In this document: positions 3,501-62,510 of the stretch, one piece after another
Layout of the letters: every line of letters begins with the position of its first letter
Position numbering within the stretch: the first letter of the stretch is position 1
Assembly (NCBI RefSeq): GCF_900142655.1
Contig: NZ_FRBQ01000002.1
Location: forward strand, 1-64,000
Length of the DNA stretch: 64,000 bases
Direction: 5' to 3'
Source: Phytopseudomonas punonensis
GTDB lineage: Bacteria; Pseudomonadota; Gammaproteobacteria; Pseudomonadales; Pseudomonadaceae
The notes under the pieces: model-generated
Databases searched by the model: none
What the model was told of the DNA's origin: nothing
The model's input: the letters and a program-made list of their open reading frames with translations, nothing else
Made by a program: the position numbers and the translations under genes

Positions 3501-5412
3501 CGGCCGGGTCGGTGACTTTTGCGTCGACCGAGTACGGGCCTTCAGCCAGACCAGCCGGTACATCCGCGGAGTAAGTGCCGCCAGCGACCACGATAGCCGT
3601 GGTGGTCAGAACGGTAGCGCCCTGAGTGATGGTCAGCGTCACAACACTGCCTACCGGCGCATCGGTAGTGCCGACGATAGTCGGTGTAGTGTCGTTGGTG
3701 ATGGCCGGAGCATCGACGGTGATGACTGGTGCAGTGGTGTCGATAGCACCGGTGTCATTGGCCGAGCCGGTATTGCCGGCAGGATCAGTGACTTTTGCGT
3801 CGACCGAGTACGGGCCTTCGGCCAGCGGCTGAGTCAGTTCGACGCTGTAGGTACCACCAGTCAGAACCGGGGTGGTCACGGTAAAGGTGTTGGCACCTTG
3901 CGTGATGGTCAGCGTAACCGTGCTGCCGACAGGAGCATTGGTGGTTCCGACGATGGTCGGCGTCGTGTCGTTGGTGATGGCCGGGGCATCGACGGTGATG
4001 ACAGGAGCCGTGGTGTCGATGGCACCGGTGTCATTGGCCGAGCCGGTGTTGCCGGCGGGATCAGTGACTTTGGCATCGACCGAGTACGAGCCTTCGGCAA
4101 GCGGCTGAGTCAGTTCGACGCTGTAGTTACCACCAGTCAGAACCGGGGTGGTCACGGTAAAGGTGTTGGCACCTTGCGTGATGGTCAGCGTAACGATGCT
4201 ACCAACCGGCGCATCGGTAGTGCCGACGATGGTCGGTGTAGTGTCGTTGGTGATGGCCGGGGCATCGACGGTGATGACTGGTGCAGTGGTATCAATAGCA
4301 CCGGTGTCGTTGGCCGAACCGGTGTTCCCGGCCGGGTCAGTGACTTTTGCGTCGACCGAGTAAGGGCCTTCAGCCAGTGGTTGAGTCAGTTCGACGCTGT
4401 AGGTACCACCAGTCAGAACCGGGGTGGTCACGGTAAAGGTGTTGGCACCTTGCGTGATGGTCAGCGTAACGATGCTGCCAACTGGTGCATCGGTCGTACC
4501 TACGATGGTTGGGGTGGTGTCGTTGGTGACAGCTGGAGCATCGACAGTGATTACCGGCGCTGTGGTATCGACGGTATACGGCCGGCTTGCCGTGGCAGTG
4601 CCGACATTGCCTGCCGCGTCCGCACTGCTGACCGTTGCGCTGATGCTGTTGAAACTGCCGAGTTCAGCGCTGCTAACCGGGATGCTGAAGCCGAGCGTTC
4701 CATTACCCAGCGCGATAACCGTACCGCTATAGGCATTGCCACCCAGGTTCAGAGTGATCGCATCGCCGACTTTTGCTTCGCCGCCCACTGTGCCGGTGAT
4801 AGTGACCGTGGCCGCGCCGAGCTCGGTGCTATTGAGGATGTTGTCACTGGTGATCGGGGCTATGCCGACGGTTACAACTGGCGCGGTGGTATCCGGCGTG
4901 TTTGCGCCCACACCGGCTGCGTCTGCCGTTGAAAAGATGGCCGGATCGTTATCTTCGATCAGGTTGAAACCAGAGGTGCCCAGGCCGCTTGTCTGAAAAC
5001 CGATCGTCGGGTCGACGCGCTGGGCCGTCTCGCTGAGCATAATCGCGCTGTGGCCGCCGCCTGCAGCGCCACCGCCACCACCTGCGCCGGGGCCTGCCGC
5101 AGTGGGTTCAAGGTCAATAGTCGGGTCAAGGCCTGCGGCCAATGCCTGCTCGAATTCACTGAGAGGAGCTTGTGCGGTACTTTCCGCACCGTCCTGCGTC
5201 TCAGGATTGCCGGCCTGCCAGGAACTGTTCGCGCCGAGCTTCACCGTTTCGCCGTTCGCCATCTCCAGAGTCACGGAGCCGCCGTCGGCAGTGGTGACCT
5301 GCTCGCCAGCAAAGATGCGATCACCCTCAAAAACCTGACGTCTCAAGCCGTCAACCGAAGTGACGAATACTTGGCCAATCAATGATTTGATGACGGCGGC
5401 GAAATTGCTCAT
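1..5412 (-). CDS. lapA: LapA-type giant surface adhesin, N-terminal part (C-terminus outside window)
   Basis: Open frame of 1,804 codons from the ATG at 5412 to the window edge; the C-terminal RTX and secretion signal are not seen. A GGAG motif precedes the start. Residues 1-110 form a periplasmic retention module ending in a TAAG motif (104-107), the cleavage signature of the protease LapG, followed by a glycine-rich linker. Then come one Ig-like module (about 175-282), eight 92-residue Ig-like repeats (283-1018), three further Ig-like modules (1019-1345), a PA14-like domain (about 1350-1518), a cadherin-like/tandem-95 domain (to about 1606) and Calx-beta-like repeats. By family knowledge this is a type I-secreted biofilm adhesin held in the outer membrane until LapG cuts it under LapD/c-di-GMP control. 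lapD and lapG are not in the window. It is divergent from its own exporter genes. Confidence 0.93.
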   Translation of the reverse strand, partial: MSNFAAVIKSLIGQVFVTSVDGLRRQVFEGDRIFAGEQVTTADGGSVTLEMANGETVKLGANSSWQAGNPETQDGAESTAQAPLSEFEQALAAGLDPTIDLEPTAAGPGAGGGGGAAGGGHSAIMLSETAQRVDPTIGFQTSGLGTSGFNLIEDNDPAIFSTADAAGVGANTPDTTAPVVTVGIAPITSDNILNSTELGAATVTITGTVGGEAKVGDAITLNLGGNAYSGTVIALGNGTLGFSIPVSSAELGSFNSISATVSSADAAGNVGTATASRPYTVDTTAPVITVDAPAVTNDTTPTIVGTTDAPVGSIVTLTITQGANTFTVTTPVLTGGTYSVELTQPLAEGPYSVDAKVTDPAGNTGSANDTGAIDTTAPVITVDAPAITNDTTPTIVGTTDAPVGSIVTLTITQGANTFTVTTPVLTGGNYSVELTQPLAEGSYSVDAKVTDPAGNTGSANDTGAIDTTAPVITVDAPAITNDTTPTIVGTTNAPVGSTVTLTITQGANTFTVTTPVLTGGTYSVELTQPLAEGPYSVDAKVTDPAGNTGSANDTGAIDTTAPVITVDAPAITNDTTPTIVGTTDAPVGSVVTLTITQGATVLTTTAIVVAGGTYSADVPAGLAEGPYSVDAKVTDPAGNTGSANDTGAIDTTAPVITVDAPAVTNDTTPTITGTTDAPVGSIVTLTITQGTTTLTTTATVVAGGTYSADVPAGLAEGPYSVDAKVTDPAGNTGSANDTGAIDTTAPVITVDAPAITNDTTPTIVGTTDAPVGSIVTLTITQGTTVLTTTATVVAGGTYSADVPAGLAEGPYSVDAKVTDPAGNTGSANDTGAIDTTASVITVDAPAITNDTTPTITGTTDAPVGSIVTLTITQGTTTLTTTATVVAGGTYSADVPAGLAEGPYSVDAKVTDPAGNTGSANDTGAIDTTAPVITVDAPAVTNDTTPTIVGTTDAPVGSIVTLTITQGANTFTVTTPVLAGGTYSVELTQPLAEGPYSVDAKVTDPAGNTGSANDIGAIDTTAPTPTITLDANITADDVINLAESTQQIPVTGTVGGDAKVGDTVTLTVNGKTFTGQVQADNTFSIKVPGADLIADTGKTINASISTTDAAGNIGTATDSEGYSVDVTAPTPTITLDSNITADDVINLAESTQQIPVTGTVGGDAKVGDTVTLTVNGQDFTGSVVANPNGTLGFSINVPGADLVADAGKTINASISTTDAAGNIGIGTDTEGYGVDITPPSAAIDIVKISEDTGTPGDFITRDSTLTVSGTVGALGSGEKAQISVDGGNTWTDLNVSNGTWDYADGRTLSLGDHTYQVRVVDAAGNLGATDTQKVTVIANQNPVAVNDPGTAAGLTGQYYAYHEGANLDGPNLSSLAQVRAFIDANSPDAAFVAKNINYSLGGGDLGGNNNLQTFLGSDAASLNVDPENSSDAIIKLSGTLQLQAGSYQFQVKADDGYSISIDGVIVSRFDGNQSPSTNSGSFTISEPGAHTIEIIYWDQGGQAALQPTLSFAGGPYQPLSNFSPTQANPALVTGHDNALTISQSTLLANDSDADGDTLRIIGVDNPKHGTVTLNDNGSITFTPASNYYGPASFSYTVSDGNGGTSKATVTVNVTGDATPGIGAVSSAVDSAGGQVDEGDNAVFTVNLTNASITSTTFSLTLNAGTAKAGSDYNGTLTNQSFSNGVTYNASTGMVTVPAGVSSFTVTVPTINDTVSEPTETFSLTVGGKSGTATIIDNDGVPTVSAVSSAVDATGGQVDEGDNAVFTVNLTNASGTPTTFSLSLNAGTATAGSDYNGTLTNQSFSN
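1711..2358 (-). repeat. Two Ig-like repeat units (330 and 318 bp) inside lapA
   Basis: Two adjacent copies of a longer Ig-like module carry the phrases IPVTGTVGGDAKVGDTVTL and STTDAAGNIG. The unit starting at 1711 is 330 bp and the one at 2041 is 318 bp, differing by a four-codon indel. A diverged third copy lies at about 4567-4890, N-terminal to the 276-bp array, so the array is flanked on both sides by this module type. Confidence 0.85.
2359..4566 (-). repeat. Eight exact-length 276-bp tandem repeats inside lapA
   Basis: Eight consecutive 276-bp units (92 codons each), with boundaries at 2359, 2635, 2911, 3187, 3463, 3739, 4015 and 4291, encode bacterial Ig-like domains of the TTAPVITVDAPA...DAPVGS type. 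Two central-segment variants occur: one with TPVLTGGTYSVELTQPLAEG, the other with VVAGGTYSADVPAGLAEG. In protein order they run A-A-A-B-B-B-B-A. The near-identity implies recent expansion or gene conversion. Confidence 0.95.
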
Positions 5413-60388: not shown

Positions 60389-61081
60389 CTACTCCGCCTG
60401 CACATCCAGTACGCGGATACAGCCTTCATGCGGATAGTGCCAGTGCACATCGACGTCCCATAAACGTACTCCATAGCGGCGTTCGGGCGTGGGCTGCTGA
60501 TAGGCCGGGCGCGGATCCTGGGCCAGGCATTGCTCGATCAGCTCGACCAGCGGCTCGTTCAGGCGCAAGCCGTGTTCGCGCGCCTGAGCCAGCGCGTTGT
60601 CTTGCCACTGCACCTCGATTCGCACGGGAGCGTCCGCAGCCATATGGTTGTGGGCGTCAGGCACGCAGTCGGCATAGGGCACGTAGGGTTTGACGTCGAG
60701 CACCGGCGTGCCGTCGAGCAGGTCGATGCCGGATAGCCACAGGCGATCCTTGTCGACTTTCTCCAGTTTCACCACCGATTGACCGATGCCGTTAGGCCGA
60801 TGAGTCGCCCGCGTGGCGAATACGCCAAGCGAGCGATTGCCACCCAAGCGTGGCGGGCGCACCTTGAGCCTGGGTTTGTCTTCCAGCGCTTGATGAAAGA
60901 GAAACAGCAGCCACACGTGGCTGACCTGCTCCAGGCCCTGCAGCGCATCGCCTCCATCGAATGGTGCGCACAGTTCGAGCACGCCCCGCGCCGCGGGTGC
61001 CAGTTGCGGCTGGCGCGGGATGGCGAACTTCTCCTTGAAGCAGGAGCGCACATAGCCAATGGGCGAAACCTGGTAGCTCAT
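60389..61081 (-). CDS. trmO: tRNA (N6-threonylcarbamoyladenosine-37) N6-methyltransferase TrmO
   Basis: 230 aa, TsaA/TrmO beta-barrel family. SPIGYVRSCFKEKFAIPRQP at the N-terminus, GVFATRATHRPNGIGQSVVKLEKV and LDGTPVLDVKPYVPYAD are diagnostic. It methylates t6A at position 37 of threonine tRNAs with SAM. It starts 6 bp after the YehS-like gene and is probably co-translated. Confidence 0.95.
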   Translation of the reverse strand: MSYQVSPIGYVRSCFKEKFAIPRQPQLAPAARGVLELCAPFDGGDALQGLEQVSHVWLLFLFHQALEDKPRLKVRPPRLGGNRSLGVFATRATHRPNGIGQSVVKLEKVDKDRLWLSGIDLLDGTPVLDVKPYVPYADCVPDAHNHMAADAPVRIEVQWQDNALAQAREHGLRLNEPLVELIEQCLAQDPRPAYQQPTPERRYGVRLWDVDVHWHYPHEGCIRVLDVQAE

Positions 61082-61087
61082 GGTGTA

Positions 61088-61549
61088 TCAGGCTCGCAGG
61101 CGCTGGGTCAGGCCCTTGAGGAAGTTGCGCAGGAACTGGTCGCCACAGGCGCGGTAGTTGCTGGTGCCGGCCTTGCGGAACAGTGCACTCATCTCTGGCT
61201 TCGACACTTCGAAATCGACGCTGCGCATGATGGTGTGGATGTCTTCTTCCTTCAGCTCGAAGGCTACGCGCAGCTTCTTCAGCACCTGATTGTTGGTGAC
61301 CGGCAGCTCCAGGGCCGGAGCCGGGCGGCTGTCGTCCTTGCCGCGCTTGAAGTACACCAGGCCGTCGAGCGCATGGGCCAGCAGATCGTCAGTGCAGTCT
61401 TGGTAACCAGGCTCGTCGTCCTTTTTCAGAACGGCGGTGATTTCTTCCTCGGTGACCGTCTTGCCACCCAGCTTAACGATCTCGACCATTTTTGCATCGC
61501 TGACATCGAGCATGTAACGAACGCTGCGCAGCACATCATTATTGAGCAT
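61088..61549 (-). CDS. DUF1456 (YehS-like) protein
   Basis: 153 aa from the ATG at 61549. Two repeated DUF1456 units begin LNNDVLRSVRYMLDVSDAKMVEIVKLGG and TNNQVLKKLRVAFELKEEDIHTIM. The frame is open upstream, but the repeated-unit start and ribosome-binding region fix this ATG. Function unknown; the YehS family is cytoplasmic. It precedes trmO. Confidence 0.9.
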   Translation of the reverse strand: MLNNDVLRSVRYMLDVSDAKMVEIVKLGGKTVTEEEITAVLKKDDEPGYQDCTDDLLAHALDGLVYFKRGKDDSRPAPALELPVTNNQVLKKLRVAFELKEEDIHTIMRSVDFEVSKPEMSALFRKAGTSNYRACGDQFLRNFLKGLTQRLRA

Positions 61550-61605: not shown

Positions 61606-62316
61606 TTAGAAGCGCTCTTTGGCGCCTAGATAACGCCATTGTCCGGGTTGCACCTTGCCCATCGACACGGCGCCGACGCGGATACGCTTCATACCCAGTA
61701 CCTTGAGGCCAACGCTGTTGCACATGAAAACCAGCTGACCGGGCAGCGGGTTCTTCAGTGCGAAGCGCAAGCGGGTTTCGTTCTGCCAGCTGACCTTGCA
61801 GGGTGCCAACGGCGTACCGTTGAACACCAGACCATGGTTGAGGCGCTTGAGATCGCGCTCGGACAGCTCACCGCTGACCTCGACCACGTATTCCTGCTCC
61901 AACTTGCTCAGGTCGTCCTTGAGCTTGCGCTCGATGCGCCAGTCCTGCGTCAGCACGTGCAGGCCGTCGGCACCCGCTTGCAGAGGGATGCAAGGTGTCA
62001 AGTTGACGAAATGGCCCTTGAGCGTACGTTGTTCGGCACGGTCCTCAGGCCAGCGGCTATCCGGGCCGATTTCTTCGGCAGCGCGCTCCGGAAAGCGGCC
62101 GCTGGGAATGTGCAGCAACAGGGTGACCGGAACCAGGGGTTCGGCGACCGCGCCAGTCAGCAGGACGACGGTCTCGTCGGTGACCTTGCGCTGGGGCTCG
62201 TCAACCACTTCACCATTAACCGTGACCCAGCCGCCTTCAATGTACAGCTCGGCCTCGCGGCGTGAGCAGCCGGTCAGTTCGATCAGGCGTTTGGAGAGGC
62301 GTAAGGGTTCGGTCAT
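61606..62316 (-). CDS. RsuA/RluF-family pseudouridine-synthase-like protein, catalytic motif degenerate
   Basis: 236 aa. The N-terminal S4 RNA-binding domain (about 7-60) reads LSKRLIELTGCSRREAELYIEGGWVTVNG. The body follows the RsuA/RluB/RluF family, but the catalytic GRLD-x4-GL motif is replaced by LQAGADGL, so the catalytic Asp is not at its normal place. The usual NRQIRRM stretch is replaced by PGQLVFMC. The fold is probably kept for rRNA binding; activity is doubtful. An alternative is an unusual active subfamily with a shifted Asp. Confidence 0.8.
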   Translation of the reverse strand: MTEPLRLSKRLIELTGCSRREAELYIEGGWVTVNGEVVDEPQRKVTDETVVLLTGAVAEPLVPVTLLLHIPSGRFPERAAEEIGPDSRWPEDRAEQRTLKGHFVNLTPCIPLQAGADGLHVLTQDWRIERKLKDDLSKLEQEYVVEVSGELSERDLKRLNHGLVFNGTPLAPCKVSWQNETRLRFALKNPLPGQLVFMCNSVGLKVLGMKRIRVGAVSMGKVQPGQWRYLGAKERF

Positions 62317-62423: not shown

Positions 62424-62510
62424 TCAGAAGATCAGCGAGAAAATACCAATCACGACCAGCAGGCCGATCAGGAAGATGATGCCGATGGTGCTGCCGAGAA
62501 ACTTCAGCAT
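62424..62510 (-). CDS. 28-aa hydrophobic membrane microprotein
   Basis: 28 codons starting at the ATG at 62510: MLKFLGSTIGIIFLIGLLV followed by eight mostly hydrophobic residues ending in Phe. Almost the entire protein is one membrane helix with a single N-terminal Lys. AGGAG stands 7 nt before the ATG and a terminator hairpin follows the stop, so it is a complete small transcription unit. No known function. It lies between the pseudouridine-synthase-like gene and livF. Confidence 0.72.
   Translation of the reverse strand: MLKFLGSTIGIIFLIGLLVVIGIFSLIF

Follow-up and report, generated by a model that had tools for sequence, protein, structure and literature searches.

A probable non-catalytic member of the RsuA/RluF family of pseudouridine synthases in Pseudomonadaceae

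The window, which is the whole stretch of 64,000 nucleotides that was analyzed, contains at positions 61606 to 62316 on the minus strand an intact open reading frame with an ATG start, encoding a protein of 236 amino acids. This protein is homologous to the pseudouridine synthases of the RsuA/RluF family, and it has lost the catalytic motifs of this family together with a large group of relatives, referred to here as the dead clade. Comparison of these sequences suggests that it is a pseudoenzyme of this family that evolved once and that is probably kept as a non-catalytic RNA-binding factor. Sequence and phylogeny taken together make the loss of catalysis across the dead clade well supported.

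The 236-amino-acid protein has both an S4 domain and the RsuA-type catalytic fold. The S4 domain (residues 6-51; 62164-62301, minus strand) matches Pfam PF01479 with 30.8 bits (cut-off 22.8), so that it is intact, as originally predicted. Pfam shows this domain alone, and no match to PF00849 (cut-off 26.8 bits) was found in the protein at E values up to 1. Among the 51 members of the alignment used for modelling, all match the S4 domain and 16 match PF00849 (E up to 0.01). The best solved relative is RluF of Escherichia coli (3dh3, E 1.1e-13), the enzyme that forms pseudouridine 2604 in 23S rRNA and pseudouridine 35 in tRNA-Tyr. The two proteins share the S4 domain and the catalytic fold, and the alignment of their catalytic core is gap-free between residues 92 (approximately) and 231. 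Nevertheless, the curated models of the family are missed by a wide margin: the RluF equivalog NF007784 of NCBIfam gives 59.7 bits where 318 are required, and TIGR00093 gives 58.1 bits with a cut-off of 109.3.

The Asp of the GRLD motif is taken here to be the catalytic residue of this family, and GRLD, EKEY and the basic motif III are presumably catalytic or RNA-contact features. RluF has all of these, whereas the 236-amino-acid protein has none of them. At the site of GRLDxxxxGL it reads IPLQAGADGL (residues 110-119; 61960-61989, minus strand), with Gln113 in the column of the catalytic Asp and Pro111 in that of the GRLD Arg, according to both the RluF alignment and the table of 139 sequences described below. 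The segment TPCIPLQAGADGL of the protein lies opposite FPIGRLDKDSQGL of RluF and is equally long, and the alignment is free of gaps, so the change in this region is a substitution and not a deletion. The original prediction had correctly noticed the missing Asp; its further claim that this stretch is three residues shorter was an alignment slip. It had also reported the loss of NRQIRRM, and PGQLVFM (residues 192-198; 61723-61743, minus strand) is indeed aligned opposite this motif, the site being (K/N)RQIRRM in the family. Two changes come in addition to those that had been reported. The Lys of EKEY is replaced by Gln141, giving EQEY (residues 140-143; 61888-61899, minus strand), and residue 70, the Lys of the NKP stretch, is retained in only 14 of 54 representatives.

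Structural modelling, which had been suggested as a check, gave the catalytic fold of RluF. The AlphaFold2 model, built from 51 aligned sequences (the window protein and 50 relatives from genome contigs), has a mean pLDDT of 92 and a pTM of 0.85. RluF chains lead its Foldseek ranking, with 3dh3 as the best match, and VIA-align superimposes it on the catalytic domain of RluF (2gml) with a Z score of 19.0 and an rmsd of 1.9 Å over 158 residues. Over the whole length, the rmsd is large (11.7 Å over 208 residues for 3dh3), probably due to an S4 domain that is modelled at another angle. The model also matches, in fold, two chains of large-subunit assembly intermediates of the trypanosomatid mitoribosome (7aoi_XP and 7am2_BZ; Z 9.2-9.4), with a whole-length rmsd of about 13 Å.

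The survey of the motifs across homologs covered 222 proteins, which were sorted by the joint presence of the GRLD Arg and Asp. Both residues are present in 58 distinct intact relatives, nine of which are of the RluF type, while 164 proteins (139 distinct) do not have both. Four sequences (L005, L006, L007 and L171) and matches beginning after query residue 8 are omitted from these numbers; only identical sequences were merged, so a few genes with different ends may count twice. The phylum-level matches were read in part: from the genomes sampled as the same phylum, 7 of 16 were read, and the copies in all of these are intact. The GRLD Arg (column 111) is present in none of the 139 dead-clade members, the EKEY Lys (column 141) in none of these and in all 58 intact relatives, and at least three of the four basic residues of motif III in none of the 139. 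Motif III is present in 57 of the 58 intact relatives as tabulated; the 58th, L205, is cut short in the table at an insertion, and its full reading restores the motif as KKRQIRRM. This insertion, of some tens of residues, follows the EKEY strand in L205, the intact copy of genome G943. As the Arg, the Lys and motif III are lost in all 139 sequences, neither chance nor sequencing error accounts for the losses.

The closest intact relatives are RluF-like sisters with about 36-42% identity, among them those of Neisseria (L134) and Eleftheria (L135) as well as L156, L158-L165 and L191. These retain GRLDIDSxGL, EKEY or DKEY, and (K/R)KRQIRRM, which the dead clade does not have. The stretch SWQNExxLR was considered as a signature of the dead copies, since it appeared specific in comparison with 14 intact sequences, but it is largely common to the intact sisters and was rejected. 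The catalytic column itself is mixed in the dead clade, with Gln in 89, Glu in 29, Pro in 11, Asp in nine and Gly in one of the 139 sequences. An Asp at the catalytic position, which would have spoken against the original prediction, is missing from the window protein but present in a small part of its clade, and some of these nine members may still be active. The Arg and the Lys are missing from every one of the nine, and none of them has more than one of the four basic residues of motif III. One of them, the copy of Pseudomonas aeruginosa (L133, positions 4001-4708), reads LALDSEASGL, lacks the GRLD Arg, the EKEY Lys and motif III, and is annotated in its record as 'rRNA pseudouridine synthase'. 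This copy is a test case for residual activity.

The dead copies have a single origin. In a tree of 49 of the 139 dead and 49 of the 58 intact representatives, constructed without the motif columns and with RluF as the outgroup, they form one clade with a support of 100/100, found in 100% of 200 bootstrap trees. A quick tree that included the motif columns (54 dead, 14 intact and seven RluF sequences) again gave a single dead clade, nested inside the intact sequences. The base of the tree without motif columns is compatible with both a nested and a sister position. Together with the joint losses and the purifying selection described below, the single origin upholds the original suggestion that the protein may be catalytically dead, whereas the other half of that suggestion, binding to rRNA, is no more than plausible. 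That the members of the dead clade do not perform catalysis can be inferred from their sequences with high confidence.

In the Pseudomonadaceae, an orthologue is present in 140 of 198 genomes (one of which is truncated by the end of its contig), and a fragment is found in a 141st. All 33 sampled genomes of the same genus have the gene, while it is missing from all 32 sampled genomes of another genus of the family (g5), indicating that it is dispensable there. No intact copy was found in the 198 Pseudomonadaceae genomes. The match list of this family is empty between E values of 3.7e-59 and 7.7e-16, and intact sisters elsewhere fall at 2.8e-45 to 4.1e-24. Within the order, the dead copy is present in 10 of 194 genomes and an RluF-type match (E up to 1e-15) in six more. 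Within the class, 34 of 369 genomes have a match (E up to 1e-20), with a dead copy in 22, an intact copy in 13 and both in one of them. In the phylum, 79 of 398 genomes match the profile (E up to 1e-25).

One dead and one intact copy occur together in 12 genomes of the window's class outside its order (G489, G605, G887, G909, G919, G937, G943, G1002, G1041, G1064, G1078 and G1087), and the two copies share 33-44% identity within a genome (11 pairs compared). In some lineages the dead copy is thus a paralogue that accompanies an intact gene; in the Pseudomonadaceae it is the sole copy that was found. The window genome encodes seven PF00849 proteins, among them RluE, RluB and RsuA. These three score above the TIGR00093 cut-off, the 236-amino-acid protein scores below it, and RluF was not found by sequence in this search. 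Close dead copies were also observed on MAG contigs that carry the labels Verrucomicrobiaceae and Lysobacteraceae, as well as in two further families of the order (G225 and G287); the placement of these copies (L098, L103, L118 and L122) may reflect transfer or mis-binning.

The gene is maintained by purifying selection. Among 37 close relatives (642 of 666 pairs, which are not independent), pN/pS is 0.255 for the whole gene, 0.242 for the S4 domain and 0.253 for the catalytic domain. A pseudogene was rejected on the basis of this value and because no internal stop occurs in any of the 140 listed dead copies of the Pseudomonadaceae that are complete or almost so. The lowest 15-codon windows cover residues 16-31 in the S4 domain, 170-190 and 111-129. 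The windows that begin at residues 111-113 belong to the ten lowest of 222, and ranks of 145 and 121, respectively, were obtained for those that begin at 104 and 106. Motif III was considered as the most constrained stretch, with a value of 0.069 for residues 186-200, yet its sliding windows rank 23rd to 26th of 222, and the claim is therefore limited to pN/pS values among the lower ones. Three positions have become newly fixed in the dead clade: A116 (Ser to Ala, 134 of 139), Q141 (Lys to Gln, 129 of 139) and K188 (137 of 139). Columns 110, 113, 114, 115, 117 and 196-197 vary. Residues R6, K9 and R19 and the C-terminal R211, R213, W227 and R228 are invariant or nearly so. Constraint combined with new fixation would look like the pattern expected when a fold is re-used rather than when it decays.

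The same positions are the reason to consider that a different enzymatic activity, the other alternative of the original prediction, was acquired in the remodelled pocket, as newly fixed residues lie near the old active site instead of drifting, and the windows starting at residues 111-113 and at the former motif III have pN/pS values among the lower ones. This appears improbable, however, since no new acid, Cys or His, as might be expected of a catalytic or metal site, is found among the newly conserved columns, and columns 113, 115 and 196-197 vary.

A non-catalytic RNA-binding factor is the reading that best accommodates these observations. In the ancestor of the dead clade, an RluF-like synthase copy would have lost, on a single occasion, the GRLD Arg, its dependence on the Asp, the Lys of EKEY and the basic motif III, after which the fold would have been kept and re-used. 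The S4 domain and the C-terminal R211, R213, W227 and R228 would dock on a structured RNA, most probably either rRNA during 50S maturation or a tRNA. The remodelled pocket would serve as a binding or scaffold surface, with uridine isomerization gone, and the protein encoded directly downstream, of the DUF1456 family, could be a partner. The steps of this model differ in strength. RNA binding through the S4 domain and the C-terminal part is reasonably likely, and a function in the maturation of the large subunit, or one that involves tRNA, is no firmer than a suggestion.

The charge of the S4 domain counts partly against this reading. Its mean net charge is -3.06 in the dead clade, as against +0.65 for the intact relatives and +1.56 for RluF, and this difference makes strong RNA binding less convincing. 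The acidic shift is an average and is not uniform over the same-genome pairs: in 11 of these, the dead copy has the lower S4 charge in six, an equal charge in two and the higher charge in three. The S4 core residues are retained in the dead clade despite the mean shift. A loss of positive charge in the catalytic domain was also considered and rejected, as its mean is unchanged (+6.74 in dead copies, +6.54 in intact copies and +7.22 in RluF). RNA binding by the dead clade is thus plausible, and its mode may have changed.

Precedents for this reading point both ways. In an E. coli strain from which ten modification enzymes are missing, the inactive variants RlmB(E198A) and RlmL(N309A) still help 50S assembly (PMC11194073), and such dead variants acting as assembly factors are a precedent for a non-catalytic role. 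Against this, the accessible text of the same paper describes RluF as giving no help to growth or 50S assembly in that strain and credits the rescue by RluC and RlmN to their modifications and not to binding. In humans, RPUSD3 has also lost the catalytic Asp, and according to the accessible text of PMC12716993 it has no noticeable activity in human cells, be it on rRNA or on tRNA. Contrary to that report, an older review describes it as active on mRNA and tRNA, and also mentions its co-sedimentation with the mitochondrial large subunit (PMC8067846, as far as its accessible text goes). RPUSD3 shares the loss of the Asp with the 236-amino-acid protein, in which the fold is kept. It differs from it in being a mitochondrial protein of the RluA family, with a change of D to G and a place in a large-subunit module. 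The nearest relatives of the 236-amino-acid protein are RluF, RsuA and RluB, so its likeness to RPUSD3 is parallel and independent. No report of a catalytically dead bacterial protein of the RsuA family was found in the open-access literature searched, and the accessible text of PMC7822408 does not treat this gene.

Directly downstream of the gene and on the same strand (61088-61549, minus strand) lies a DUF1456 (YehS-like) gene with a PF07308 match of E 2.1e-55. Of 141 dead-copy loci, 78 (69 of 119 distinct ones) have a DUF1456 gene as the downstream neighbour in the same orientation, at a spacing of 19-256 bp. Within the stretches fetched, it accompanies 74 of 139 distinct dead copies and none of the 58 intact ones; the latter value is weak, since 33 of these 58 loci are shorter than 2 kb. 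In the class sample of 369 genomes, which is apparently identical for both searches, DUF1456 occurs in 16 of the 22 genomes that have a dead copy, in 40 of the 347 that do not and in three of the 12 with an intact copy only. This co-occurrence extends to 10 of 15 families and has a Fisher p of 3.9e-10, a value that ignores relatedness. DUF1456 is missing from six of the 22 dead-copy genomes, and the link is absent in many members. Gene neighbourhood and co-occurrence thus hint at the DUF1456 protein as a partner of the dead synthase.

It could also be that the protein works chiefly by contacting other proteins, either regulating a different synthase or serving as a partner of the DUF1456 protein, and binds little RNA itself. 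The frequent adjacency and co-occurrence of DUF1456 would agree with this, and an S4 domain that is on average more acidic fits weaker RNA binding. Nevertheless, this is unlikely, with DUF1456 absent from part of the dead-copy genomes and the p value uncorrected for relatedness; moreover, as no intact sister was found in the 198 Pseudomonadaceae genomes, regulation of that sister cannot be general. Least likely is that the 236-amino-acid protein has remained a pseudouridine synthase, relying on another residue or on a relaxed active site. In favor of this, the fold is retained, as is Tyr143 (126 of 139), nine of the 139 members have Asp in the catalytic column, and the P. aeruginosa record names its copy an rRNA pseudouridine synthase. 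Against it, the catalytic column and columns 114, 115 and 117 vary, Arg111 and Lys141 are missing in all 139 members, and the RluF and TIGR00093 cut-offs are far from reached.

The preferred reading, of a pseudoenzyme retained to bind RNA, may be extended to a widespread bacterial pseudoenzyme family that arose once from an RluF-like synthase, spread over several lineages of one class, with the dead copy alone in Pseudomonas and both types elsewhere, and acts as a non-catalytic ribosome- or tRNA-binding factor working with DUF1456; this wider proposal is tentative and, as a whole, rather doubtful. The gene is probably misnamed in databases. If the preferred reading is true, it is misannotated as an rRNA-modifying enzyme in all 33 sampled genomes of the genus and in 140 of 198 genomes of the family. 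It would also offer a natural test of whether modification enzymes serve ribosome assembly as binders and not just as catalysts, for which genomes with both copies and with the dead copy only are at hand.

Beyond the DUF1456 gene, a TrmO-type tRNA methyltransferase gene follows in the same direction (60389-61081, minus strand; PF01980 and PF18389). A relative is present in 44 of 80 loci on genome contigs, indicating that this RNA-modification neighbourhood is partly conserved. On the upstream side, the gene is adjoined by a hydrophobic open reading frame of 28 amino acids, MLKFLGSTIGIIFLIGLLVVIGIFSLIF (62424-62510, minus strand), which may encode a small membrane protein.
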